Assembly (NCBI RefSeq): GCF_900109145.1
Contig: NZ_FNYY01000025.1
Coordinates: 1-61,288 of the forward strand
Reading direction: 5' to 3'
DNA from: Marinovum algicola
GTDB lineage: Bacteria; Pseudomonadota; Alphaproteobacteria; Rhodobacterales; Rhodobacteraceae
DNA length: 61,288 nucleotides
The notes under the pieces were generated by a model that was given only the letters and a program-made list of their open reading frames with translations, did not search any database and was not told where the DNA came from. A program made the translations under genes and the position numbers. Shown here one piece after another: positions 49,033-61,288 of this stretch (its first letter is position 1; every line of letters starts with the position of its first letter).

Positions 49033-49956
49033 ATGCAGCCCATGTACACCGTTGCCGCGCTCTATCACTTCACCCGCTTCGAGGATCCCGCCGCCGTACA
49101 GGGCCCGCTCCGGATGCTCTGTCAAGATCAGGGCATCACCGGCACGCTCTTGCTGGCGCAGGAGGGGATCAACGGGACCATCGCGGGCCCGCGCGCCGGC
49201 ATCGACGCGGTGCTGGCGCATATCCGCGCCCTGCCCGGCTGCGCTGATCTCGCGCATAAGGAAAGCCGCGCCAGCGCCCCGCCCTTTGCCCGGATGAAGG
49301 TGCGGCTCAAGCGCGAGATCGTCACCATGGGCCAGCCCGACGTCGATCCGCGCGCCCGCACCGGCCATTACGTCGATCCCGCCGACTGGAACGAGTTGAT
49401 CCAGAGCCCGGATGTGGCGGTGATCGACACGCGCAACGATTACGAGGTCGCCATCGGCACCTTTGACGGCGCCATCGATCCCGGAACCGCCAGTTTCCGT
49501 GACTTTCCCAAGTGGTGGCAAGACAACAAGCACCGCTTTCACAACAAGAAGGTGGCAATGTTCTGCACCGGCGGCATCCGCTGCGAGAAATCCACCAATT
49601 ACCTGCTCGGCCAGGGGGTCGAGGATGTGTTCCACCTCAGGGGCGGCATCCTGAAATATCTCGAAGAGGTGCCCGAAGCGCAGAGCAGCTGGCAAGGCGA
49701 GTGTTTCGTCTTCGACGGCCGGGTCTCGGTGGGTCACGGTCTCAGGGAAGGCCCGCATCTGCTCTGCCATGCCTGCCGCCGCCCGATCCTTCCCCAAGAC
49801 CGCGCCCGCCCGGAGTACGAACACGGCGTGGCCTGCCACCATTGCGTGCGCGAGACCTCCGACGCCGACAAGACCCGCTTTCGCGAGCGCCAGAAACAGA
49901 TCGAACTGTCCCGCAAACGGGGCGAGAAACACCTCGGCGGCGATCACGGCGTCTGA
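49033..49956 (+). CDS. trhO: tRNA uridine-34 hydroxylase TrhO (YceA-type rhodanese)
   Basis: This 307-aa protein has an N-terminal acylphosphatase-like domain (ITGTLLLAQEGINGTIAG, about 35-52) and a rhodanese domain with the active-site Cys in AMFCTGGIRCEKST (about residue 179). A C-terminal Cys-rich segment (CHACRRPILP; ACHHC) probably binds zinc. Members hydroxylate U34 of tRNA using oxygen. The start is either 49033 (MQPMYTV) or 49042 (MYTV); the ribosome site is weak for both. Confidence 0.92.
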   Translation: MQPMYTVAALYHFTRFEDPAAVQGPLRMLCQDQGITGTLLLAQEGINGTIAGPRAGIDAVLAHIRALPGCADLAHKESRASAPPFARMKVRLKREIVTMGQPDVDPRARTGHYVDPADWNELIQSPDVAVIDTRNDYEVAIGTFDGAIDPGTASFRDFPKWWQDNKHRFHNKKVAMFCTGGIRCEKSTNYLLGQGVEDVFHLRGGILKYLEEVPEAQSSWQGECFVFDGRVSVGHGLREGPHLLCHACRRPILPQDRARPEYEHGVACHHCVRETSDADKTRFRERQKQIELSRKRGEKHLGGDHGV

Positions 49957-50023
49957 TCCTTTTTCTGTTGGCAGATACCGCGGGTGAATCGCCGCGCGCG
50001 GCGATGGGACAGCGCCCCCGTCC

Positions 50024-50062
50024 TTGCCATCCACCAAACGAACGGTCATATTCGCATATGAC
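50024..50062 (+). promoter_or_regulatory. Candidate promoter with operator palindrome before the MBL gene pair
   Basis: TTGCCA (50024-50029) and CATATT (50047-50052) lie 17 nt apart. Overlapping the -10 is the perfect palindrome GTCATATTCGCATATGAC (50045-50062; arms of 7 bp around TCGC). Its minus-strand core ATATGCGAATATGA matches the core in front of soxB at 12 of 14 positions, so the genes are probably under the same repressor. Confidence 0.6.
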
Positions 50063-50085
50063 ATTATGTTTGGGAGGACGTCGTC

Positions 50086-50988
50086 ATGGCACTCACCCGC
50101 AGAGAGATGCTGGCCGGTCTCGGCGCCGGTCTGGCCCTGGCCGGCCCGGTCTGGTCGGGCACCACCCTTGGCGCAATGCGGATCGACACGCTCAGCGATG
50201 GCAACCTGGCGCTGCCCGGCGATTTCATCTTCGGCCCGATGCCGCAACAGGCGCTGACGCCGATCCTGCGCAAATACGATCTCGATCGCGACAGCCTGAC
50301 GCCGGGCTGCAACCTGACGCTGCTGCGCGATGACGAGAGAACCGTGCTCTTCGACGCTGGCGCCGGTCCGGATTTCCAGCCCTCGGCCGGCAAGCTGCAA
50401 GCTGCCTTTGATGCCCTCGGCCTGTCGCCGGACGACATCACCCATGTCGTGGTTACCCATGGCCACCCAGACCACATCTGGGGGCTGCTCGACGATTTCG
50501 GCGATCCGCTGTTTGCCGAGGCCACCCATCTGATCGGCGCGACCGAGCTGGATTACTGGCTGGACGACACCACCGTCGACACCATCGGCCCGGCGCGGCA
50601 GGCCTTTGCCGTCGGCGCGAAACGGCGGCTCGAGGCCCTGGGTGACCGGATCACCACCTTCACCGATGGCGCCGAAATCCTGCCCGGCGTTTTGGCCCAT
50701 GCCAGCTTCGGCCACACCCCGGGCCATATGTCCTTCGAGCTGCGCAGCGGCACTGACGCGATGATGGTCGTCGGAGATGCCATCGGCAATCACCATGTCG
50801 CCTTCGAACGACCGAGCTGGCCCTCCGGCTCGGACCAGGACGTTGACACCGCCGCCGCCACCCGCCTGCGCCTGCTCGATCGGCTTTCCACCGAGCAGAT
50901 GCGGCTGATCGGCTTTCACCTGCCCGGCGGGCTCGGCCGGGCCGAGGCCCATGGCGACGGCTATGTCTTCCTGCCGGAGGCGACGTGA
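50086..50988 (+). CDS. Exported metallo-beta-lactamase-fold hydrolase, Sox-associated
   Basis: This 300-aa protein has a Tat-like N-terminus (MALTRREMLAGLGAGLALAG) and an intact MBL zinc motif THGHPDHIWG (about residues 125-134), further metal ligands in ASFGHTPGHMSFEL and MVVGDAIGNHH, and a late His near residue 283. It is probably periplasmic. MBL-fold genes (soxG/soxH) accompany sox clusters in Paracoccus, and this position suggests such a role, perhaps in sulfur-compound or persulfide hydrolysis. GGGAGGA precedes the ATG. The next gene starts on its stop codon. Confidence 0.88.
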   Translation: MALTRREMLAGLGAGLALAGPVWSGTTLGAMRIDTLSDGNLALPGDFIFGPMPQQALTPILRKYDLDRDSLTPGCNLTLLRDDERTVLFDAGAGPDFQPSAGKLQAAFDALGLSPDDITHVVVTHGHPDHIWGLLDDFGDPLFAEATHLIGATELDYWLDDTTVDTIGPARQAFAVGAKRRLEALGDRITTFTDGAEILPGVLAHASFGHTPGHMSFELRSGTDAMMVVGDAIGNHHVAFERPSWPSGSDQDVDTAAATRLRLLDRLSTEQMRLIGFHLPGGLGRAEAHGDGYVFLPEAT

Positions 50989-51929
50989 TGCGGATCGCCC
51001 TGGCCTTGGCCCTGCTCGCCGCGCCCGCCCTTGCCAACGAGGAGATCGCCGATCAATACCCCGGCTCGCTGCTCTATTCCAAACCGGTCGAGTTCATTCC
51101 CGGGGTCTGGTCCGCCATCGGCGCCACCGCCCCACCGACCTATGAAAACGCCGGCCACAACAACAATCTGAGCTTTATCGTCACCGGCGCGGGGGTGGTC
51201 GTCATCAACAGCGGCGCGGCGCACCAGCTGGCTCGGGCGCTGCATGACGAGATCAGGAAAGTGACCAACCAGCCGGTCATCGCGGTCTTCAACGAGAACG
51301 GCCAGGGGCATGCGGCGCTGGGCAATTCCTACTGGGCGGCGCAGGGCGTGCCGATCATTGCCCACGAAGATGCGGCGCGGGAGCTGGAGCACTCCGGCGG
51401 CCAGATCCTGAGCGGCATGATGCGCTACAACCGCGACCGCGGCGAGGGGACGGAGATCACCCTGCCGACCGAGACCTTCGCCGAGACATACATCCTCGAA
51501 AAAGGCGATTTCCGCATCGAAGCGCGCTATCTCGGCCCGGCCCACAGCCCCGGCGACATCGTGATCTGGCTGCCCGAGCAATCGCTGGTGATCTCGGGCG
51601 ATATGGCGTTTCACGAACGCCTGCTGCCGATCTTCGAACATACGATCACCGCCGATTGGCTGGACACCTGGGACAGGGCGTTTGAACCGCTGGGCGCGAC
51701 CTATGTGATCCCCGGCCACGGCCATCCCACCAACATGGCTCAGGTGCGGCGCTACACGCGCGACTACTTGGAATTCCTGCGCGGGCAGATCGGCGCCCAT
51801 ATCGACGCCGGCGGCGGGCTGGCCGAGGCTTATTACGTCGACCAGTCGCCCTTTGCCCATCTCGACACCTTCGAAGAACTGGCGACCAAGAACGCCGGCC
51901 GGGTCTACGAGCAGATGGAGTGGGAGTGA
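50988..51929 (+). CDS. Periplasmic MBL-fold protein with degenerate HxHxDH motif, SoxH-like
   Basis: This 313-aa exported protein (signal MRIALALALLAAPALA) has the MBL fold of quinoprotein-relay/SoxH-type hydrolases: NNNLSFIVTGAGVVVINSG near residue 50, YLGPAHSPGDIVIWLPEQSL near residue 181, and IPGHGHPTN near residue 238. The expected HxHxDH site reads FNENGQGHAALGN, so several zinc ligands are missing while the later His and Asp residues remain. The ATG overlaps the previous stop (TGATG). It forms an operon with the intact MBL gene upstream and converges on the sox genes. Confidence 0.85.
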   Translation: MRIALALALLAAPALANEEIADQYPGSLLYSKPVEFIPGVWSAIGATAPPTYENAGHNNNLSFIVTGAGVVVINSGAAHQLARALHDEIRKVTNQPVIAVFNENGQGHAALGNSYWAAQGVPIIAHEDAARELEHSGGQILSGMMRYNRDRGEGTEITLPTETFAETYILEKGDFRIEARYLGPAHSPGDIVIWLPEQSLVISGDMAFHERLLPIFEHTITADWLDTWDRAFEPLGATYVIPGHGHPTNMAQVRRYTRDYLEFLRGQIGAHIDAGGGLAEAYYVDQSPFAHLDTFEELATKNAGRVYEQMEWE

Positions 51930-51935
51930 GCCGGC

Positions 51936-52367
51936 TCAGAACGCCAGCGCTTCTGCGACGATCTCGCCCAGAAGCGTCTCGACCGCGTCCATCGGGCCGG
52001 CGGGATAGCTGCGATAGCCGATCTCGACCTTGCCGGCGCGGTCGGTGACAAAGACGCTGTAGGGACAATAGGCGATATTGGCGGGATCGGCCTCCATCAC
52101 CTGCCGCGAGACCTGCGCCGAACAGAACAGAAAGGCATCCGCCGCATCAAACAGCGGCGCGCCGCCCACGTCCTGACGGGTGCGCGCCAGCATCTCGCCG
52201 ATGTGGCTGCGGTAATCCACCACCAACCCCTGATTGACGATGGCGTTTTCGACGCTGAACAGCGCATCCTCGTAGCTGCCGTCATAGACATGGGTGATCA
52301 CTGGCGCTTCGGCCATGGCGGCGCCGGCCAGGCTGGCGGCAAAGGCCAGCGGAATCAGGCGGATCAT
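51936..52367 (-). CDS. DUF302 domain protein, exported
   Basis: This 143-aa protein has a signal peptide (MIRLIPLAFAASLAGAAMA) and a DUF302-like body (VYDGSYEDALFSVENAIVNQ, then the GEMLARTRQDVGG helix, then FCSAQVSRQVMEADP and IAYCPYSVFVTD). The family is small and of unknown function, often found beside sulfur or metal genes. Two Cys residues near 87 and 106 may be functional. It is the last gene of the leftward sox transcript, 60 nt behind soxF. The ATG at 52367 is preferred over a TTG at 52385 that overlaps the GAGGAG ribosome site. Confidence 0.8.
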   Translation of the reverse strand: MIRLIPLAFAASLAGAAMAEAPVITHVYDGSYEDALFSVENAIVNQGLVVDYRSHIGEMLARTRQDVGGAPLFDAADAFLFCSAQVSRQVMEADPANIAYCPYSVFVTDRAGKVEIGYRSYPAGPMDAVETLLGEIVAEALAF

Positions 52368-52427
52368 CTGTAGTGCTCTCCTCAAAGTCGGGCCCCGCCC
52401 CGGGGCAGAGCCCGCCCCGGTCCGGTT

Positions 52428-53693
52428 TCAGCCGAACATGTCACTGGTGATCGCGTCATACCAGCCGAGACTTTCCTCGTAGGTCGCCTTGCGCGTCGCC
52501 GCGTCTTCACCGGTCTGGCTGACAAAGCCGTCGATCCGGGCGATCTTTTCTTCGGTCGCCTCATAGGTGGCGCCGACCTTGACGCCATCGTCCGCATCGA
52601 TCAGCGACCAGCAGGTATTGGAGAACCGCGCCGGAAAGACGCGGCTTCCGGTCAGCGCGCCGCGCACCGCATTGGCACAGACCTTGGCCTGCGAATTGGC
52701 GGAAAAGCCCGATTTCGGCATGTCGCCCTGCGCCGCCGAATCGCCCAGAACGTGGATCTCGGGATCGACCTTGGACGACATGTCGACGGCATTCACCGGC
52801 GCCCAGTTGCCCTCGGTCACCCCCGCCAGATCGGCGATATGGCCGGCCTTCTGCGCCGGGATCACGTTGCAGGCCGCCGCCTCGATCACTTCGCCATCGA
52901 TGTCCACCGTCATCTCGGCCGGGTTCACGGTGACATTCTCGCCGCCGAAATCCGGGCCGATGCGGGTGATCATGCCCGGGTAATGCGCCTCCCAGCCGGC
53001 CTCGAACAGCCCCTGCTTGGAGAAATTGGCCTTGGAATCGGCGATGATGATCTTGGCGGTCGGATTGCTCTGCTTGAGCACATGCGCCACCATCGACACC
53101 CGCTCATAGGGCCCCGGCGGGCAGCGGTAGGGGTTGGGCGGCGCGACCATCACGAAGGTTCCGCCTTCGGGCATCGCAAGGATCTGCGCCTTCAGCAGCT
53201 CGGTCTGAGAGCCGCCCTTGTAGGCATGCGGCATGGCATTCTGCGACGTGAGGTCCCAGCCGGCCACCGAGCCCGCGACGAAATCGATGCCCGGCGAGAG
53301 GATCAGCCGGTCATACGGCACCCGGCCGCCGCCGGCGAGCGCGACGGATTTGGCGGCGCGGTCCACCCCGGTGGCCCAGTCGTGCACCACGTTGATCCCA
53401 TAGTCGCTGGCCAGGGTGCCATAGGAATGCGCGATGCTCTCGATCGTCCGAAAGCCGCCGATGTAGAGATTGGAGAAAAAGCAGGTGTAATAGCTTCGCG
53501 ATGGCTCGATCAGCGTGACGTCGATCTCGCCGGCGCTGTCCTTGGCGATGTAACGTGCCGCCGTGGCGCCGCCGGCGCCGCCGCCCACGACGACAACCCG
53601 AGGCTTGCCATGGCTCCCCGCCCGCACCATCGGCGCGCGAAGCGTCGCGGCCGCCGCGGCGGTGCCGATAAAGGCCCGTCTGTTGAATGACAT
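52428..53693 (-). CDS. soxF: Flavocytochrome c sulfide dehydrogenase flavoprotein SoxF
   Basis: This 421-aa periplasmic flavoprotein oxidises sulfide with SoxE as electron acceptor. A Tat signal (SFNRRAFIGTAAAAATLRA) is followed by a FAD Rossmann motif VVVVGGGAGGATAARYIAKD (about 33-52). The Cys that carries covalent FAD in FccB is conserved in YYTCFFSN (C71). The C-terminal FCSD-type domain includes NTCWSLIDADDGVKVGATYE. It is preceded by GGGAGGAG and lies 30 nt behind soxE. Confidence 0.94.
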   Translation of the reverse strand: MSFNRRAFIGTAAAAATLRAPMVRAGSHGKPRVVVVGGGAGGATAARYIAKDSAGEIDVTLIEPSRSYYTCFFSNLYIGGFRTIESIAHSYGTLASDYGINVVHDWATGVDRAAKSVALAGGGRVPYDRLILSPGIDFVAGSVAGWDLTSQNAMPHAYKGGSQTELLKAQILAMPEGGTFVMVAPPNPYRCPPGPYERVSMVAHVLKQSNPTAKIIIADSKANFSKQGLFEAGWEAHYPGMITRIGPDFGGENVTVNPAEMTVDIDGEVIEAAACNVIPAQKAGHIADLAGVTEGNWAPVNAVDMSSKVDPEIHVLGDSAAQGDMPKSGFSANSQAKVCANAVRGALTGSRVFPARFSNTCWSLIDADDGVKVGATYEATEEKIARIDGFVSQTGEDAATRKATYEESLGWYDAITSDMFG

Positions 53694-53723
53694 GTCCGTC
53701 TCCTCCCATAAAGCAGGGCCGCC

Positions 53724-54068
53724 CTATGGTGCGAGCGTCCCGAAATATGCGGCCAGCGCCGCAATCTCCTCGTCGGACAGGCGCCCGGCGATCATCTGCA
53801 TGGCGGGATGGGATCTCTGGCCCGATTTATAGCCGTGCAGGGCGACGACGAAGGCCTCTTGCGGCCATCCGACGATCGCGGGAATGGCGTCGCTGCCAGA
53901 GGCCTGATGGCAGGTGGTGCATTCCGATGACAGGTATTCACCATACTCCGGGTCGCCCTCGATGGCGAGGATTTCGCCGATCTCCGTCTCCTCTTCGGCC
54001 GTCACCGCCGCCGCCCACCCGAGACAGAGCGCCAGGGCGACGGTCAGCGGGCGGGGGGCGACGGGCAT
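53724..54068 (-). CDS. soxE: Monoheme cytochrome c SoxE (flavocytochrome c subunit)
   Basis: This 114-aa periplasmic cytochrome has a signal peptide (ending AAAVTA), one heme site C50-TTC-H54 and a likely Met ligand in HPAMQMIAGRL. It should take electrons from SoxF. It is a single-heme form, shorter than the diheme SoxE predicted in Paracoccus. It starts four bases after the soxD stop with GAGGAG in front. Confidence 0.88.
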   Translation of the reverse strand: MPVAPRPLTVALALCLGWAAAVTAEEETEIGEILAIEGDPEYGEYLSSECTTCHQASGSDAIPAIVGWPQEAFVVALHGYKSGQRSHPAMQMIAGRLSDEEIAALAAYFGTLAP

Positions 54069-54072
54069 GACT

Positions 54073-55356
54073 TCACTCCTCGGCGAAGGATTTCAGGTAT
54101 TCGACCACCGCAGCCTGATCCGCCTCCTTGCGCAGGCCCGAGAAGGACATCTTGGTGCCTTGCAGATAGTCGCGCGGTTTGGCCAGAAAGGCTTTGAGGT
54201 CTTCCTCTGTCCATATCAGACCATCTTCGCCGGCCTGCTTCAACGCTTTCGAATACGAGAATCCGTCGATCGCGCCGGCCGGATGGCCGACAATGCCGTT
54301 CAGCGCGGGGCCGGTGCGGTTCTTGGCCCCTTCGCCGACCTGATGGCAGGACTTGCACTTCCGGAACACCCGTTCACCGGCCGCCACCAGTTCGGCATCA
54401 AGCGCGGCCGGCACCACGGCTTCGGCCTCTTCGACGGCTTCGGTCTCTTCGACCGTGGCCTTTTCGACCGCAGGCGGGTCTTCGGCCGCCCCGGCCTGAT
54501 CCGGCGTCACGTCCAGAACGGTGGCGCGCATGGTGATTTCGACGCTGTCCTTGCAGTTCTCCATGCAGGGCTCGGCCCGCCATTGCGCATATTCCGCCTC
54601 GGCCCGGTCATCGACGATGAAGCCCGCGGCGTTGGGCATCTCGACTTCGAGGAAGTTCTCGTGGCTGAGGGTGAAATCCTCGTCAACGATATCGTTGGAA
54701 TAGAGGATATAGGCGGTGATCGCATAGACCTCGTCATCGCTCAATGTCTGCGCCGCGCCAAAGGGCATGGAGCGGTGGACATAATCCCAGACCGTCGAGA
54801 GATAGGGCCAATAGCTGCCCACGGTCTTGACCGGGTCTTTCCGGTCCAGCGTGTCCCAGCCGCCGGCCAGCGTCGGCCAGTTGCCGACGCCCTCGGCAAA
54901 ATCGCCATGACAGGCGGCGCATTGCTCGGCAAAGACCTCTTCGCCGGTCCAGACATCGCCGGAACCTTCGGGCAAGCCGGTGCCATCGGGCAGGATATCG
55001 ACGTCCCAGGCGGCGATTTCCGCTTCCAATGCCGGGCGGCCGAGGCCGAGGCGGCTGTCTGTCAGGCCCTGGGCCGCTGCCATCTTCATCACCGGGGCCT
55101 CTGGCGCGCTGGCGGCGGCCCCGGCCTGCGGCACGTCCGCCGGCTCTGCCAGCCCGGCTTGCTCGGCCACTTCGGTCGCGGCCGGGATCACCTCGGCCGC
55201 CGGGGCGCCGCCACCGGGGATTTGAAAGGCGATCGTGGGCGCCGTGGCGGGCATCGGGGTGACAAAGCGGTCGGCCAGGGTGATGGCCAGACCGGCGGTC
55301 GCGGCAATGCCCGCGCCCGCGCCGACAAACAGAGCGGCTTTAGGAAACTTCGACAT
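54073..55356 (-). CDS. soxD: SoxD, diheme cytochrome c of sulfane dehydrogenase
   Basis: This 427-aa partner of SoxC in SoxCD removes six electrons from the SoxY-bound sulfane. A membrane-spanning or signal segment is at residues 7-30 (AALFVGAGAGIAATAGLAIT). It is followed by an Ala/Pro-rich linker, the first cytochrome domain with C146-AAC-H150, an acidic linker (about 290-320) and the second cytochrome domain with C334-KSC-H338. The ATG at 55356 lies inside the end of soxC, a 17-base overlap. Confidence 0.94.
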   Translation of the reverse strand: MSKFPKAALFVGAGAGIAATAGLAITLADRFVTPMPATAPTIAFQIPGGGAPAAEVIPAATEVAEQAGLAEPADVPQAGAAASAPEAPVMKMAAAQGLTDSRLGLGRPALEAEIAAWDVDILPDGTGLPEGSGDVWTGEEVFAEQCAACHGDFAEGVGNWPTLAGGWDTLDRKDPVKTVGSYWPYLSTVWDYVHRSMPFGAAQTLSDDEVYAITAYILYSNDIVDEDFTLSHENFLEVEMPNAAGFIVDDRAEAEYAQWRAEPCMENCKDSVEITMRATVLDVTPDQAGAAEDPPAVEKATVEETEAVEEAEAVVPAALDAELVAAGERVFRKCKSCHQVGEGAKNRTGPALNGIVGHPAGAIDGFSYSKALKQAGEDGLIWTEEDLKAFLAKPRDYLQGTKMSFSGLRKEADQAAVVEYLKSFAEE

Positions 55357-56608
55357 TTTCGGCCACCCCGTTGGATTTGACATGCCAGGTCTGAATGCAG
55401 TTGTTGTGATAGATCGAATTTTCGCCGCGCACGTCGCGCAGCTGGGACTTGGTCGGCTGGACATAGCCGGTCTCGTCCATCGCGCGGGCCTGCAACAGCA
55501 TCTCGCCACCGTCCCAGTCGGTATCGAGATAGAAGCGCACCAGCGCCTTGTTTCCGCCCTCCTGCGAAAGCCGTGCGGTCTCCCAGCTCTTGCCGCCGTC
55601 CCGGGAGACGTCGACGCGGGTGATCCGCCCGTGCCCCGTCCAGGCCATGCCAGTGACAACCAGCGGCCCGGGTCCGTGAGTGATGGGCATTTGCGGCGAG
55701 GGCGAGGTGATGACCGACTTGGCGTCCATCACCCATGTCCATTTGCGGCTGGTCCCGTCGGCCAGCGTGTCGGTGTATTTCGAGGTTTCTTCGCGGCTTT
55801 CGACCGGCTGATCGAGCACCTCGATCCGGCGCAGCCACTTGATCCACATGTTGCCTTCCCAGCCCGGCACCACCAGGCGCACCGGGTAGCCATGCTCCTT
55901 GCGCAGCGCTTCGCCATTGGCCTTGAACGCCACCAGAACGTCATCCAGCGCCTTCTCCAGCGGGATCGAGCGGCCGTTCGACGAGGCATCGGCGCCTTCG
56001 ACATAGACCCATTTGCCCGCCGTCTCGCCCGACAGCCCGGCCTCGTTCAGCAGGCTGCGCAGCGGCACGCCGGTGTATTCCATGTTGTGAATCATGCCAT
56101 GGGTGAACTGCGCGCCATTGAGCTGCGCGCCGGCCCATTCCATGCCGGTGTTGGCGGCGCATTCGCAGAAATAGACGTGGTTCTCGCGCGGAAAGCGCTC
56201 GAGATCGGCATAGGTGAAGACCAGCGGCCGATCGACCAGCCCGTTGATCATCAGGCGGTAATCCTCCTTTTTCAGCTCGATGGCGCCCGAGTGATGCCGT
56301 TCGAAGGCGCAGCCCTGCGGCGTGATCGTGCCGTCGAGCGCGTGGATCGGGGTGAAATTGATCGAGCTGATCGTATCGGCGGTGAGCCATTCGACATTGC
56401 GGCGGATCACGTCGCTCTCGAATTCGATGGGCAGGCCATAAGGCACCTCGTCGACGCCCTGGCCGAGCCCGGACGCCCAGTCCTGTACTTCGGTGATCAG
56501 CGGATCGGGGGTGGCGGCGCGGGCGGCCCCGGCGGTGACGGCACCGGCGGCGGCGGCCACGCTGCCGCGCAGGAAGGCACGGCGGGATGATTTCAGGATG
56601 TCAGACAT
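55340..56608 (-). CDS. soxC: SoxC, molybdenum sulfane dehydrogenase
   Basis: This 422-aa sulfite-oxidase-family molybdoprotein of SoxCD has a Tat signal (SSRRAFLRGSVAAAAGAV). The molybdenum-coordinating Cys is in YFCECAANTGMEW (C150 by alignment with CAGN). The C-terminal dimerisation domain contains VITSPSPQMPITHGPGPLVV. SoxCD allows full oxidation of thiosulfate to sulfate without stored sulfur. GGGAGAAGGG precedes the ATG. Confidence 0.95.
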   Translation of the reverse strand: MSDILKSSRRAFLRGSVAAAAGAVTAGAARAATPDPLITEVQDWASGLGQGVDEVPYGLPIEFESDVIRRNVEWLTADTISSINFTPIHALDGTITPQGCAFERHHSGAIELKKEDYRLMINGLVDRPLVFTYADLERFPRENHVYFCECAANTGMEWAGAQLNGAQFTHGMIHNMEYTGVPLRSLLNEAGLSGETAGKWVYVEGADASSNGRSIPLEKALDDVLVAFKANGEALRKEHGYPVRLVVPGWEGNMWIKWLRRIEVLDQPVESREETSKYTDTLADGTSRKWTWVMDAKSVITSPSPQMPITHGPGPLVVTGMAWTGHGRITRVDVSRDGGKSWETARLSQEGGNKALVRFYLDTDWDGGEMLLQARAMDETGYVQPTKSQLRDVRGENSIYHNNCIQTWHVKSNGVAENVEVS

Positions 56609-56733
56609 ATGGCCCTTCTCCCTTGGTTGCGGTTTGCCGCTTGGACGGCGCGATTGGAAAACGCACTGCCCGAGGGCAGTACGGCATGTTCTGTGCGCCC
56701 GGGGTCGGGCGGTCAGGCAGGTCTTCTGTGCCT

Positions 56734-58431
56734 TCAGACGCCGGTCACGGCGACGCTGGTATTCGGATCAAGCCGGACAGTTCCCAGCTTGGAGATATGG
56801 GCCTCGACCACATCCCAGATCGGCGGGCCTTCGGTGCCTTCGTTCACAGAGGCCCAGCCGGCGACAACGTAGTTGCGCGCCGGGTCGATGGCCTCGCCGG
56901 TCGAAAGCAGCGTCATCTCGGAGATGCGCTCGCCCTGCGGTTTCGAAATGTCGATCCGGTAGCCCATGCCGCCAACGCGCACCATATCGCCGCCCTGCTG
57001 GTAATAGGGATCCGGGTTGAAGATGTTGTCGGCCACGTCCTCGAGCACGATTTTCAGGAATTCGCCCGTCATTTCGGTGCGGTAGGCGTTGGGATAGGTC
57101 ATCGAGGTGACGTTCCAGATATCCTCGCGGGTGATCTTCTGGCCGGGGATCAGCGACGGCCCCCAGCGCACGCCCGGAGACAGCGCAATCTCGGCGTCGC
57201 GTTCCGACAGCAGCGCATCGCAGATCAGGTCGTCCCACGACCCGTTGAAATTGCCGCGGCGGTAAAGCAGGCTCTCGCTCTCGCCGATCACCTCTTGCAG
57301 CTCCGCCTCATAAGGCGCGCGCTCTGCGTCGATGACGGCGGCAACCTCCTTGTCGGGGGTGATCACGTCGGAAAAGATCGGGATCAGCTTGTGCCGAAAG
57401 CCCATCATCCGCCCATTCCGTACATCGAGATCCACGCGCGAGACGAACTTGCCGTTGGACCCGCTCGCCACGATGATCGTGTCGCCCACCAGCACCGGCT
57501 CGGGCAGCGCGTCATGGGTGTGGCCCGAGAGGATCACGTCGATGCCGGTGACGATGCCGGCCATCTTCTTGTCGACGTCGAACCCGTTGTGCGACAGGCA
57601 AACCACCAGCTCGGCGCCCTGCGCGCGCACCTCGTCGACCATTTCCTGCATGTTCTCGTCGCGGATGCCAAAGGCGTATTCCGGGAACATCCAGCCGGGG
57701 TTGGCGATCGGCATATAGGGGAAGGCCTGGCCGATGACGGCGATCTTGACGCCGCCGCGTTCAAAGAACTCGTAGGGCGGAAACAACTCGGCCGGCTCGT
57801 CCCATTCGGCGTCAAAGATGTTCTGCCCCAAGGCGGCGAAGGGCAGGCCCTCGACGATCTCGGCCACCCGGTCGGAGCCGAGGGTGAACTCCCAATGGAA
57901 GGTCATCGCATCCGGTTTCAGCGCATTCATCACGTTGACCATGTCCTGGCCCTGGGTGTGATAGCAGGTGTAGCTGCCGTGCCAGGTGTCACCGCCATCG
58001 AGCAGGAGCGCATCGGGCCGCGCGGCGCGGATCGCATTGATCACCGTGGCCACCCGGTCGAGCCCGCCAACCCGGCCATAGGCCTGCGCCAAGGCCGAGA
58101 AATCGCCCGAGGACAGCGCGTAATGCGCGGGCGAGCCGTCGTCGATGCCGTAGAGCCGGCGGAAATCGGCGCCGGTCACATGCGGCACCGCGCCCTTGTT
58201 GTCGCCGACGCCGATATTGATCGACGGCTCGCGAAAATAGATCGGCTTCATCTGGGCGTGGATGTCGGTGACATGGATCAGCGAGACATTGCCGAAGGTG
58301 TCGAACTCCAGAAGCTGGTCCTGGGTCAGCGCCTGCTGCGCGGCCAGGCGCGACCAGGTGCCGAAACCGGAGGCGCCAAGCATGGCCGAGGCGGCCATCG
58401 AGACCTGAAGGAAATCGCGGCGGGAGATCAT
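56734..58431 (-). CDS. soxB: SoxB, thiosulfohydrolase
   Basis: This 565-aa periplasmic dimanganese enzyme of the 5'-nucleotidase type hydrolyses sulfate from SoxY-bound cysteine S-thiosulfonate. It has a Tat signal (MISRRDFLQVSMAASAMLGA) and metal motifs VTDIHAQMKP, LLDGGDTWHGSYT, CLSHNGFDVDKK and LSGHTHDALPEP. AAGGAGCC precedes the ATG. It heads a second sox transcript (soxBCDEF), as a terminator follows soxA and a palindrome lies 42 nt before the soxB start. Confidence 0.96.
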   Translation of the reverse strand: MISRRDFLQVSMAASAMLGASGFGTWSRLAAQQALTQDQLLEFDTFGNVSLIHVTDIHAQMKPIYFREPSINIGVGDNKGAVPHVTGADFRRLYGIDDGSPAHYALSSGDFSALAQAYGRVGGLDRVATVINAIRAARPDALLLDGGDTWHGSYTCYHTQGQDMVNVMNALKPDAMTFHWEFTLGSDRVAEIVEGLPFAALGQNIFDAEWDEPAELFPPYEFFERGGVKIAVIGQAFPYMPIANPGWMFPEYAFGIRDENMQEMVDEVRAQGAELVVCLSHNGFDVDKKMAGIVTGIDVILSGHTHDALPEPVLVGDTIIVASGSNGKFVSRVDLDVRNGRMMGFRHKLIPIFSDVITPDKEVAAVIDAERAPYEAELQEVIGESESLLYRRGNFNGSWDDLICDALLSERDAEIALSPGVRWGPSLIPGQKITREDIWNVTSMTYPNAYRTEMTGEFLKIVLEDVADNIFNPDPYYQQGGDMVRVGGMGYRIDISKPQGERISEMTLLSTGEAIDPARNYVVAGWASVNEGTEGPPIWDVVEAHISKLGTVRLDPNTSVAVTGV

Positions 58432-58473
58432 CGGAGGCTCCTTGTATCACACAGGGCTTTTCTCACACACGGC

Positions 58474-58493
58474 TTCACATGCGCATATGTGAA
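58474..58493 (-). promoter_or_regulatory. Operator palindrome before soxB
   Basis: TTCACATGCGCATATGTGAA has 7-bp arms around GCGCAT. Its minus-strand core ATATGCGCATGTGA matches the site before the MBL genes at 12 of 14 positions. A TTGACT hexamer (58495-58500, minus strand) abuts it. A dimeric regulator such as SoxR (ArsR family) is the likely binder; the gene is not in the window. Confidence 0.65.
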
Positions 58494-58511
58494 TAAGTCA
58501 AGAACAGAAAA

Positions 58512-58538
58512 CCCCGCGCCAGAGAAACCGGCGCGGGG
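58512..58538 (-). terminator. Intrinsic terminator behind soxA
   Basis: CCCCGCGCC (58512-58520) and GGCGCGGGG (58530-58538) form a 9-bp stem. On the minus strand it is followed by TTTT. It lies seven bases after the soxA stop and separates soxXYZA from soxBCDEF. Confidence 0.8.
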
Positions 58539-58544
58539 CGTGGA

Positions 58545-59390
58545 TTACTGGCGAACCGCCGGTGTCTCGACCGAAAGGCCGTTGCCGCGCGAGGCGACAT
58601 AAAGCTCCAGTGCGCGGAACTCGTCGGAGCCCTCGGCAAAGGTCTCGGCGCGGGTGTCGCGGATACAGCCGCGGAAGCGGTTGTGCTTGGAGATTAGCTT
58701 GGCCTGTTTCAGACGATAGGTCGGAAAGCCGTTGATCTGGCCCTGGCTGAGGTGATCGGCGCGGATGTAGTTGCCGTTGTTGTCCTCATGGCAGGAGGCA
58801 CAGGACAGCTCGAGCTGGCCATAGCGGGTGTAATACATCTCCTTGCCCTGCTCCCAGTATTCCTGGGCCGGGCCGTCGATGGCCACGTTCATCGGCATGC
58901 CGCGCGACTGATGCGCGATTGCGGCGATCATGCCCTGCATCTCGGCGCCCGACCATTTCCACGGTTCGGCTTCCATGCGCTCGGTGCGGCAGGTGTTGAC
59001 CAGATCTTCCATCACCACCAGTTCGCCGGCCTCGTTGACCTTGGGCATTTCTGCGGTGAGCCCGGCAAAACTCTCGATGTCCTCGTGACAGGAGGCACAG
59101 CTCTTGCCGGCGGCGCCTTCGACCACCTCGAACTGATCCAGCGCCTGATCGACAAAGATCATGCCGGGGTTGTCGAAATCGTCGAGCTCAAGCGCCTGGG
59201 TCTCGTTGGTGCGGTAGTGCCAGCCCGAGATCACCTTGTCGCCCAGCGCACCGTCCAGATGGGCGGGGGCGTCGGCCTTGGAGACCATCTCGACGTCGCC
59301 GTTGATGACCAGCGCGTCATCGTCAGGACCGCCGGCAAAGGCCGGTGCCGCGGCCAACAATGCTGCGGCAGTGAGTGCGGTAAATTTCAT
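58545..59390 (-). CDS. soxA: SoxA, diheme cytochrome c of SoxXA
   Basis: This 281-aa subunit of SoxXA joins thiosulfate oxidatively to the SoxY cysteine. It has a signal peptide (MKFTALTAAALLAAAPAFA) and two heme sites, C98-ASC-H102 and C197-ASC-H201. The heme-ligating cysteine that carries the persulfide is probably C242 in RFRGCIRDTRAE. The two-heme form is like that of Paracoccus. GGGAGG precedes the ATG. Confidence 0.95.
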   Translation of the reverse strand: MKFTALTAAALLAAAPAFAGGPDDDALVINGDVEMVSKADAPAHLDGALGDKVISGWHYRTNETQALELDDFDNPGMIFVDQALDQFEVVEGAAGKSCASCHEDIESFAGLTAEMPKVNEAGELVVMEDLVNTCRTERMEAEPWKWSGAEMQGMIAAIAHQSRGMPMNVAIDGPAQEYWEQGKEMYYTRYGQLELSCASCHEDNNGNYIRADHLSQGQINGFPTYRLKQAKLISKHNRFRGCIRDTRAETFAEGSDEFRALELYVASRGNGLSVETPAVRQ

Positions 59391-59473: not shown

Positions 59474-59803
59474 TCAGCCGACCGCGATTTCCTTGGCTTC
59501 CTCATAGACCGAGCCGTCATCGTCATACCAGGTGAACTTGAATTCACCCGATTCAGGCACCGTGGCCTGAAACTGAAAGTACGGGTTGGTCGAGATCGCC
59601 GGTTCCAGCGTGACATCGATCACGTTCTCGCCGTTGAAATCACAAGTGAACCGATTGATGATCGAGCGCGGGATGGTGTTGCCGTCCTTGTCCTTGCGCT
59701 GGCCGGATTCCATCGTGTGGCTGATCAGGGTCTTGATCGTGATCGCTTCGCCGGCCTGGGCCTTCTTGGGCACCTTGACGCGGGGTTTCACACCTTTTGC
59801 CAT
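59474..59803 (-). CDS. soxZ: SoxZ, sulfur-carrier scaffold subunit
   Basis: This 109-aa partner of SoxY has an immunoglobulin-like fold and no signal peptide; it is exported as a complex with SoxY. The start MAKGVKPRVKVPKKAQAGE and the segment ITIKTLISHTMESGQRKD are typical. AAGGAGA precedes the ATG. It is 15 nt behind soxY. Confidence 0.95.
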   Translation of the reverse strand: MAKGVKPRVKVPKKAQAGEAITIKTLISHTMESGQRKDKDGNTIPRSIINRFTCDFNGENVIDVTLEPAISTNPYFQFQATVPESGEFKFTWYDDDGSVYEEAKEIAVG

Positions 59804-59818: not shown

Positions 59819-60238
59819 TTAGCCGCCGCAGCCGCCGATGGTGACCTTGACGGTCTTCGAGGCGCGGACAAAGCTGCCGTCGGCCATCTGTGCGACGGCA
59901 ATCACGTCCTGGGTTCCGGCAAGGCGAATCCGCGTGGCGGCCTCCTGCGCGGCGGCCAGCGGGCCGAAGTTGAACGTCGCGACCGGCGGCGCCGGGTTGC
60001 CGGCGGCAAAGACCGCGATGGCGGTGGCGCCGGGGGCCGAAACCTCGATCGGGACTGTGTTGCCGTTCTCGGCGATCTCGGGCGCGGTCAGCTCGAGCCC
60101 GCCCTCACCGGTTTCGGCTCCGCCGGTGAAATCATTGATAAGATCGTCCACCGACGCAAAGGCGCGGAACGGCAGGACGGTCAGAAGCGCGGCACCGGCA
60201 CCGAGAGCCAGCGTTTCGCGTCGCGTGAAATCCATCAT
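59819..60238 (-). CDS. soxY: SoxY, sulfur-compound carrier protein
   Basis: This 139-aa carrier holds intermediates on the Cys of its swinging C-terminal arm GGCGG (C137), which is intact. It has a Tat signal (MDFTRRETLALGAGAALLTV) that also exports SoxZ. There are two adjacent ATG codons; 60238 is chosen, 60235 is equally possible. AAGGAGA precedes them. Confidence 0.95.
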   Translation of the reverse strand: MMDFTRRETLALGAGAALLTVLPFRAFASVDDLINDFTGGAETGEGGLELTAPEIAENGNTVPIEVSAPGATAIAVFAAGNPAPPVATFNFGPLAAAQEAATRIRLAGTQDVIAVAQMADGSFVRASKTVKVTIGGCGG

Positions 60239-60266: not shown

Positions 60267-60746
60267 TCACTCGTCTTTCAACGTCATCAGGAACGCCACC
60301 ACGTCTTCGATCTCCTGCGCCGTCAGCAGCGGCGGCAGCGGCTCTTCGCCCGCCTTGCCGGTAAAGCCGTTGCCGGGACGGATGAAACCGCTGGTCTTGT
60401 AGAATGCCGGCATCACCGTGCCGTCATAAGTCATCTTGGCATTGGCGACGATGCCGCGCAGCTCGGCCTCTTCCCAGCGCGAACCGACGCCATCGAGAAT
60501 CGGACCGACTTCGCCATGGAACGGCGCATCCTTGAGCTCGGTCACCGCGTGGCACGAGATGCAATTGCCCTTGGATTTGGTCTTCATGATCACCGCGCCG
60601 CTTTCCGGGTCGCCCGGTGCGCCCGACAGCGAAGTCGCAATGGCGCCGTAATCGTCGTAGGTCACATCCTGCGGGGCCACTTCTGCCGCGAGCGCGGCCT
60701 GCGCGCCCAGCGAGGCAACCGCCAGTGCTAGTGTCGTGAGCCTCAT
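60267..60746 (-). CDS. soxX: SoxX, monoheme cytochrome c of SoxXA
   Basis: This 159-aa periplasmic cytochrome accepts electrons from SoxA. It has a signal peptide (MRLTTLALAVASLGAQAALA) and one heme site, C62-ISC-H66, with a likely Met ligand in DGTVMPAFY. GGGAGGG precedes the ATG. It is the first intact gene of the leftward sox cluster; the fragment of soxW lies 118 nt upstream. Confidence 0.95.
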   Translation of the reverse strand: MRLTTLALAVASLGAQAALAAEVAPQDVTYDDYGAIATSLSGAPGDPESGAVIMKTKSKGNCISCHAVTELKDAPFHGEVGPILDGVGSRWEEAELRGIVANAKMTYDGTVMPAFYKTSGFIRPGNGFTGKAGEEPLPPLLTAQEIEDVVAFLMTLKDE

Positions 60747-60835: not shown

Positions 60836-60868
60836 ATTCATGAGTTTGAATTAGTTGATTTGAATCAA
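60836..60868 (-). promoter_or_regulatory. Two palindromes upstream of soxX
   Basis: ATTCA-TGAGTT-TGAAT (60836-60851) and TTGATT-TG-AATCAA (60855-60868) are adjacent inverted repeats, 90-122 nt before the soxX ATG; the second overlaps the soxW stop. They differ from the soxB-type operator and may bind another regulator or a second site of SoxR. Confidence 0.45.
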
Positions 60869-60972: not shown

Positions 60973-60992
60973 CTACCGGCTGACGCCGGTAG
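60973..60992 (-). repeat. Right-end hairpin of the IS200 element
   Basis: CTACCGGC (60973-60980) and GCCGGTAG (60985-60992) form a perfect 8-bp stem around TGAC. It overlaps the last codons and the TAG stop of tnpA. IS200/IS605 elements carry such subterminal hairpins for TnpA recognition. Confidence 0.7.
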
Positions 60993-61288
60993 CATCATGT
61001 TTTCCATGTAGTTCGAGGTACTGAAGTATGATGTCGTCGGTCACGTTTCCCGAAGTGGTCGAGAAATACCCACGAGCCCAGAACCGGCGGCCCCAGTAGC
61101 GCTTTCGCAATTCGGGGAACTCCATCTGGACCCGGCGCGAAGAGCGACCCTTGATACGTTGCATGACCGTGGCGAGGGCCAGTTTCGGCGGCACACTGAT
61201 GAACATGTGGACATGGTCACGCGCCACGACGCCCTTGACGATGTGCACGTCGAGTTCTGCGCAGGTTTGGCGGATGATCTCGCGAAGA
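60973..61288 (-). mobile_element. tnpA: IS200-type Y1 transposase TnpA, partial at window edge
   Basis: Only the C-terminal part is in the window. The frame runs past 61288 (LREIIRQTCAELDVHIVKG). The HUH metal motif is VARDHVHMFISVPP and the nucleophilic Tyr is in DDIILQYLELHG. The motif YWGRRFWARGYFSTTSGNVT is typical of IS200/IS605 TnpA. The element moves as single-stranded DNA. Its stop codon forms part of a hairpin at its right end and abuts the soxW fragment. Confidence 0.9.

Follow-up and report, generated by a model that had tools for sequence, protein, structure and literature searches.

The sulfur-oxidation (sox) genes of Marinovum algicola lie on a contig of 61,288 nucleotides (NZ_FNYY01000025.1, here called the window), together with two genes, MBL1 and MBL2, for proteins of the metallo-beta-lactamase (MBL) fold. 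A preliminary description of this stretch had pointed to two near-identical palindromes, one before soxB and the other before the MBL genes, and had proposed that one dimeric regulator, probably SoxR, reads both. To judge from the sequences, both most likely belong to operators of the class known from the persulfide sensor SqrR, at which the ArsR-family repressor SoxR would act, keeping soxX, soxB and the two MBL genes repressed as long as sulfane sulfur is absent. The choice of SoxR is supported by the conservation of the operator in relatives, by the ranking of the sites under a blind model and by the presence of a soxR gene. A third site, before soxX, had been missed by the first reading. 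The class of the operators, their conservation and spacing, the genes that they precede, the presence of SoxR and the sequence of a terminator between soxA and soxB are all observed features.

A SqrR-class core in related sox loci

As given in the open-access passages of PMC9774250, the deduced recognition sequence of SqrR is ATTC-N8-GAAT; the same passages add that the katG site of YgaV, a SqrR homologue, did not show it. In searches of the open-access literature this string was found in that one paper, and passages of PMC9143464 yielded no site. The relatives sampled here are the 80 loci closest to the window's soxB, that is, the best 80 of at least 590 confirmed relatives. Upstream of their MBL1 orthologues ATTC, eight bases and GAAT recur, and in many of the 80 loci a similar stretch stands upstream of soxB, placed behind the soxA terminator. 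The exact core with a spacer of 8 is found 125 times in these loci (1,608,843 bp), compared with 2–24 times for each other spacer from 0 to 20; the spacing of exactly eight bases that the operator class requires is present in the relatives as well. These 125 cores lie upstream of soxX (59), MBL1 (25), soxB (22) and soxC (8), the rest being in the soxS-soxV region (1), upstream of a DUF302 gene (1), within genes (5) or elsewhere (4).

Counted gene by gene in 200-bp upstream regions, with at most one mismatch to the core, the site precedes soxX in 69/73 loci, soxB in 58/79 and MBL1 in 29/36, followed by soxV (39/74) and soxS (34/74), which share one region, and by soxC (13/76). Ten low gene sets together span 0 to 8%: soxR (3/74), soxW (1/61), soxY (1/74), soxZ (1/75), soxA (6/75), soxD (0/22), soxE (2/56), soxF (0/54), the DUF302 gene (3/38) and MBL2 (2/24). 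The exact core stands before soxX in 58 of 73 relatives and before MBL1 in 25 of 36. For MBL1 a second sample of 30 loci was drawn, which includes the window's own (G000) and partly overlaps the first (the L120 site is the L072 site). Among homologues of at least 50% identity, 11 of 13 carry the core within 150 bp with at most one mismatch, 8 of them exactly; among 16 weaker homologues (below 50%), the core is exact in two (L123, L127) and has one mismatch in two (L125, L135). A leave-one-out scan of the 80 loci, at a score of at least 9, placed matches upstream of soxX in 70 loci, soxB in 60, soxS-soxV in 36, MBL1 in 27 and soxC in 10; another 15 matches, in 10 loci, comprised 13 within genes and one each before the DUF302 gene and soxY. 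In the soxX, MBL1 and soxB sets mean complementarity peaks on the central axis of ATTC-N8-GAAT (0.70, 0.60 and 0.55, respectively), an axis that is favoured by the use of the core columns for the alignment. The right half of the relatives' soxB sites mostly reads G(C/A)AT.

Predicted operators in the window and in the genome

The window carries three predicted operators of the SoxR/SqrR type. That of soxX (60836-60851, minus strand) has the exact core, ATTC-AAACTCAT-GAAT, directly before TTGTTGTTGCGT; that of soxB (58479-58494, minus strand) reads ATTC-ACATATGC-GCAT, with one mismatch; and that of the MBL pair (50050-50065, plus strand), 20 bp 5' of the start codon, reads ATTC-GCATATGA-CATT, with two. 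By their core, the soxX and soxB sites belong to the operator class. A weight matrix was built from the soxX sites of 69 relatives and made symmetric, with no window site included (locus L082 is absent from this soxX-only model; the soxB matrix may contain it). Under it, the three sites take ranks 1 to 3 in the window, with scores of 30.3 for soxX (60836), 17.6 for soxB (58479) and 9.7 for the MBL pair (50050), ahead of a fourth position at 6.8 that overlaps the soxX site; a further run gave the same order. Column-permuted models brought all three into their top three in 4 of 500 cases.

How do the two sequences first described relate to these operators? The minus-strand cores, ATATGCGAATATGA at 50046-50059 on the MBL side and ATATGCGCATGTGA at 58475-58488 on the soxB side, do agree at 12 of 14 positions, and each sits in a perfect inverted repeat, the arms being 7 bp long: GTCATAT-4-ATATGAC (50045-50062), which overlaps the MBL operator with its axis 4 bp from the operator centre, and TTCACAT-6-ATGTGAA (58474-58493), whose axis misses that of the soxB operator by 3 bp. 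With spacers of 4 and 6, however, the two repeats cannot be superimposed, and their register differs from the conserved one; as a conserved register these palindromes were rejected, on the dyad profiles of the relatives and the unequal spacers. Both upstream regions hold further perfect repeats, a GC-rich one 5' of the MBL gene and the terminator 5' of soxB, and shuffling gives at least one perfect repeat with 7-bp arms in 88/1000 cases for the MBL region and 53/1000 for the soxB region. The motif as first described is not common genome-wide: exact matches to the joint pattern ATATGCGMATRTGA in the 5.4-Mb assembly are confined to the MBL and soxB places, two matches that are given by construction, the pattern having been derived from both sites. 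One mismatch adds a single place (C32:84982) and the opposite strand of the MBL site.

Genome-wide searches were made with IUPAC patterns, and the matrix was applied to 71 stretches of the organism's own genome (about 271,000 distinct 24-mers). Of 20 exact-core places scored with their flanks, only soxX (30.2), C32:14776 (24.9) and C22:278621 (22.5) exceed 20, and 12.1, 11.0 and lower scores follow. In about 134 kb of own DNA chosen without regard to the motif, scores of at least 9 are found at soxX, at soxB, in the soxS-soxV region of contig C48, at the MBL pair and at one unrelated place.

Alone, the two-sequence argument is weak: when the upstream regions (130 bp each) are dinucleotide-shuffled, 82 of 1000 shuffles reach a 12/14 match, and the evidence that the shared sites are not due to chance comes from the comparison with relatives. 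Several results weigh against the assignment to SoxR. The relatives were chosen by their closeness to the window's own soxB. Among the 73 loci with both soxX and soxB regions, 4 have no site at either gene and 14 have a soxX site but none at soxB or MBL1; the soxB set also has a second dyad at +4, at 0.53 against 0.55 for the central one. Exact ATTC-N8-GAAT is not rare, with 35 places in the genome, and the bare core was rejected as a specific marker for this reason. The MBL site mismatches the core at 2 of 8 positions, scores 9.7 against 30.3 for soxX and, on the 16-base core, reaches 3.6, a value that 29 of the 35 places with an exact core exceed. Four of the 20 places scored with flanks lie outside the sox cluster and exceed it (24.9, 22.5, 12.1 and 11.0), as does the unrelated place in the 134 kb (12.1). 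Finally, the genome encodes three more BigR-like ArsR proteins above 90 bits, two of which (107.8 and 100.3) surpass SoxR itself (95.9) on the BigR model.

Because unrelated places exceed the MBL site, the genome may hold some tens of positions that score as high; this site stands out by where it lies and by being conserved in relatives, not by its score. The proposal that the MBL genes belong to the sulfur-oxidation regulon is supported by the conservation of the MBL1 operator in relatives, but since the window's own site is degenerate and its score not unique, they are less certain members than soxX and soxB. The best-surviving competitor, which we consider unlikely, keeps soxX and soxB as SoxR targets and takes the MBL match for the remnant of a decayed operator, the pair being expressed independently. 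It would account for two core mismatches where 25/36 relatives have an exact core, for the weakest score of the three, lower than at some unrelated places, and for the better cores of the same genus, exact in G003, also 20 bp from the start, and with one mismatch in G002. It sits less easily with the third rank of the MBL site under a model that holds no MBL sites, at a conserved place before the start codon, with the match of one MBL half and its flank to a soxB half at 12/14, or with the overlap of the MBL site with a sigma-70-like -10.

It is quite improbable that another dimeric regulator reads repeats of the form CAYATGC-GMATRTG at the MBL and soxB promoters, leaving SoxR at soxX only. 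Such a regulator would suit the conserved +4 dyad of the soxB set (0.53) and the restriction of the exact joint pattern to the two promoters; the MBL1 relatives, on the other hand, show dyads of 0.39 at +4 and 0.38 at -4, compared with 0.60 for the centre of the operator (in a core-based alignment that favours the centre) and keep ATTC-N8-GAAT, the repeat spacers are unequal, and the same core recurs at soxX. The +4 axis at soxB, near the repeat first described, may be a second register.

SoxR, its paralogues and the proposed switch

Which protein would read these sites? On contig C48 (10.8 kb), the minus strand carries soxT-, soxR- and soxS-like genes and the plus strand soxV- and soxW-like ones, named by place, by homology to the relatives' loci and by recall; the SoxR gene is thus found beside soxT, soxS, soxV and soxW. 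The protein matches the ArsR-family chains 13ct and 6o8k of the PDB (E 3.5e-37 and 5.7e-37), which we take to be R. capsulatus SqrR, and its two cysteines are aligned in both columns (PDB sequences u1067 and u107438). It has an ArsR-type helix-turn-helix (PF01022, 40.0 bits, cut-off 22; NF033788, 83.7 bits, cut-off 55). Against the BigR equivalog model NF040642 it reaches 95.7 bits, below the cut-off of 155, and is therefore not filed as BigR. A soxR gene was found in 74/80 loci; the stretches of the other six (L035, L046, L054, L077, L082 and L085) start at soxY or later, so that no locus is shown to lack it.

That a BigR/SqrR-like ArsR paralogue, encoded on C22, C36 or C26, binds instead of or along with SoxR is about as improbable as a second dimeric regulator. 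Paralogues are present, the C22 one sharing 57% identity with SoxR across 94 residues, and shared sites are conceivable, for passages of PMC12423496 describe sHdrR and SoxR of Hyphomicrobium as binding the same four fragments. However, the stretches around the paralogues hold no high-scoring site (best scores -4.7 for C22, 4.3 for C36 and 3.5 for C26), the soxS-soxV region beside soxR scores 12.1, and soxR is the gene present in the relatives' sox loci. A resemblance by chance can practically be set aside: the 12/14 match does arise in shuffles, as said, but the conservation in relatives, the specific spacing and the model ranking, rarely equalled by permuted models, speak against it.

With SoxR as the preferred regulator, a mechanism can be proposed by analogy with SqrR and with the SoxR proteins of other species. 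SoxR would sit as a dimer on the three operators, over the -10 of the MBL promoter and, at soxX, over the place beside the likely -35; sulfane sulfur would bridge its two cysteines and release it, and release would jointly induce soxXYZA, a separately promoted soxBCDEF unit behind the internal terminator, and MBL1-MBL2. Excerpts of the literature describe SoxR as repressing sox genes in other alphaproteobacteria (PMC10451225, PMC5748708) and as no longer binding in the presence of polysulfide in Hyphomicrobium.

The promoter regions can be set beside this scheme. A sigma-70-like promoter, TTGCCA-17-CATATT (50024-50052, plus strand), overlaps the MBL operator with its -10; it is one of two promoter-like sites in 49930-50130 (the other is on the minus strand), where shuffles give a mean of 0.0. 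CTTG stands at the MBL1 -35 position in 10/10 relatives among the matches listed, with 29 aligned. The soxX operator abuts a conserved TTGTTGTTGCgt, with TAcggT further on, and a search for a sigma-70-like consensus promoter upstream of soxB found none. Just upstream of the soxB operator lies an intrinsic terminator between soxA and soxB (58511-58539, minus strand), with a 12-pair stem, 10 of them G-C, and a T-rich tail. It is one of four terminator-like matches in 58400-58620 (shuffle mean 0.2), and the consensus of the relatives (55 aligned) likewise shows a GGG run and then T at this place. Since a soxB operator follows the terminator, soxB most likely heads its own transcription unit, which would split the sox operon.

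How far do known systems agree with this scheme? The SoxR proteins of Paracoccus pantotrophus and Pseudaminobacter salicylatoxidans are reported to bind before soxX too. Both proteins are mentioned in passages of PMC10451225, PMC5748708 and PMC11582611; as here, the repressor gene lies in the sox cluster, and PMC5748708 places SoxR-regulated promoters between soxS and soxV. Relative to these systems as described in the citing papers, the present one has, in addition, predicted sites in front of soxB and of the MBL pair, as well as a soxA-soxB terminator. The SqrR operator of Rhodobacter capsulatus, as far as the passages of PMC9774250 describe it, has the same core and spacing, and the SoxR found here is a homologue with two aligned cysteines, but the predicted targets here are sox and MBL genes. 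In Hyphomicrobium denitrificans, SoxR and sHdrR are likewise sulfane-sulfur-responsive ArsR repressors with several intergenic targets (PMC10451225, PMC12423496, in part); there, the passages give fragments with repeats, without a consensus, and a truncated Sox system with cytoplasmic sHdr.

Beyond the window, the site at C32:14776-14791 (L152, L171), at 24.9 bits, lies about 70 bp before a 5-aminolevulinate synthase gene, the one such gene found in this genome at E up to 1e-50 (TIGR01821, 674 bits, cut-off 339). It recurs in the same-genus genomes G001 (26.9) and G002 (24.6), and no site was found before this gene in a third, G003 (60% match), or in most others: 6 of 30 loci, own included, score at least 9, namely the own locus, its four nearest (L182-L186) and the distant L209. 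The gene also lies in 22 of the 80 relatives' sox loci, none with a score above -0.6, and is named in sox loci in passages of PMC11034169. As a family-wide trait the site was therefore rejected (6/30 loci; 0/22 in sox loci). Separately, a site of 22.5 bits (C22:278621-278636, L145) lies at the start of a HupE/UreJ-like gene, and two exact cores, C54:40249-40264 (11.0), inside a long open reading frame, and C22:114563-114578 (12.1), have no evident link to sulfur genes.

Genes under predicted SoxR control

MBL1 (50086-50988) and MBL2 (50985-51929) form an overlapping tandem on the plus strand, convergent with the minus-strand sox operon, and not the divergent pair of the preliminary description. 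MBL1 is an MBL-fold hydrolase with a twin-arginine-like N-terminus (by eye) and the motif HxHxDH, which 36 of 38 relatives share; its kin are AidB-type lactonases and organophosphorus hydrolases, and it scores 151.9 bits on the AidB N-acyl homoserine lactonase model, below the cut-off of 360. MBL2 is a SoxH-related MBL-fold protein in which ENGQGH replaces HxHxDH. Its 25 orthologues in the 80 loci likewise keep ENGQGH and lack the canonical motif there, which suggests an altered metal site. Against the quinoprotein relay zinc metallohydrolase models it stays below both cut-offs (TIGR04558, 130.7 against 300; TIGR04559, 132.2 against 280).

The rest of the cluster lies on the minus strand: soxX (60267-60746), soxY (59819-60238), soxZ (59474-59803), soxA (58545-59390; TIGR04484, 225 bits, cut-off 110), soxB (56734-58431; TIGR04486, 839 bits, cut-off 550), soxC (55340-56608; TIGR04555, 592 bits, cut-off 420), soxD (54073-55359), a soxE-like cytochrome gene (53724-54068), a soxF-like gene (52428-53693) and, downstream of the latter, the DUF302 gene (51936-52367). 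The names of soxX, soxY, soxZ, soxD and the soxE- and soxF-like genes come from place and recall, the gene order around soxX being common to the relatives. DUF302 homologues with an upstream region occur in 38/80 relatives' loci. A transposase fragment, IS200/IS605-like by eye, ends the window (60973-61287), and the same sequence starts contig C48 (L107). Because soxV and soxW precede soxX in relatives and the contig ends are shared, a transposable element probably lies between soxW and soxX here, the soxX operator being undamaged.

The soxG and soxH genes of Sulfitobacter are presumably MBL genes like the present pair. In passages of PMC11034169, where gene content only is described, they lie near soxF and a DUF302 gene, as here, although the NCBIfam SoxH-related models matched the present proteins below their cut-offs. 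No SoxR site at soxB or an MBL pair is named in the open-access passages, a scope outside which the primary SoxR papers (2005, 2007) fall. A known kind of regulatory site is thus met at soxB and the MBL pair, targets that those passages do not name.

A wider SoxR stimulon can tentatively be envisaged, with a switch of its own at soxB, the MBL pair contributing to the metabolism of thiosulfate or sulfane sulfur, and haem supplied through 5-aminolevulinate synthase; within it, equally tentatively, the MBL pair would be periplasmic, one member having the ENGQGH motif. For the roseobacter relatives examined, the comparison yields a precise predicted SoxR operator. Two orphan MBL hydrolases would be tied to sulfur oxidation through their regulation, and the sequences point to soxB as the head of a unit that lies behind a terminator and has a switch of its own, all of which would help to predict the timing of thiosulfate oxidation in such bacteria.

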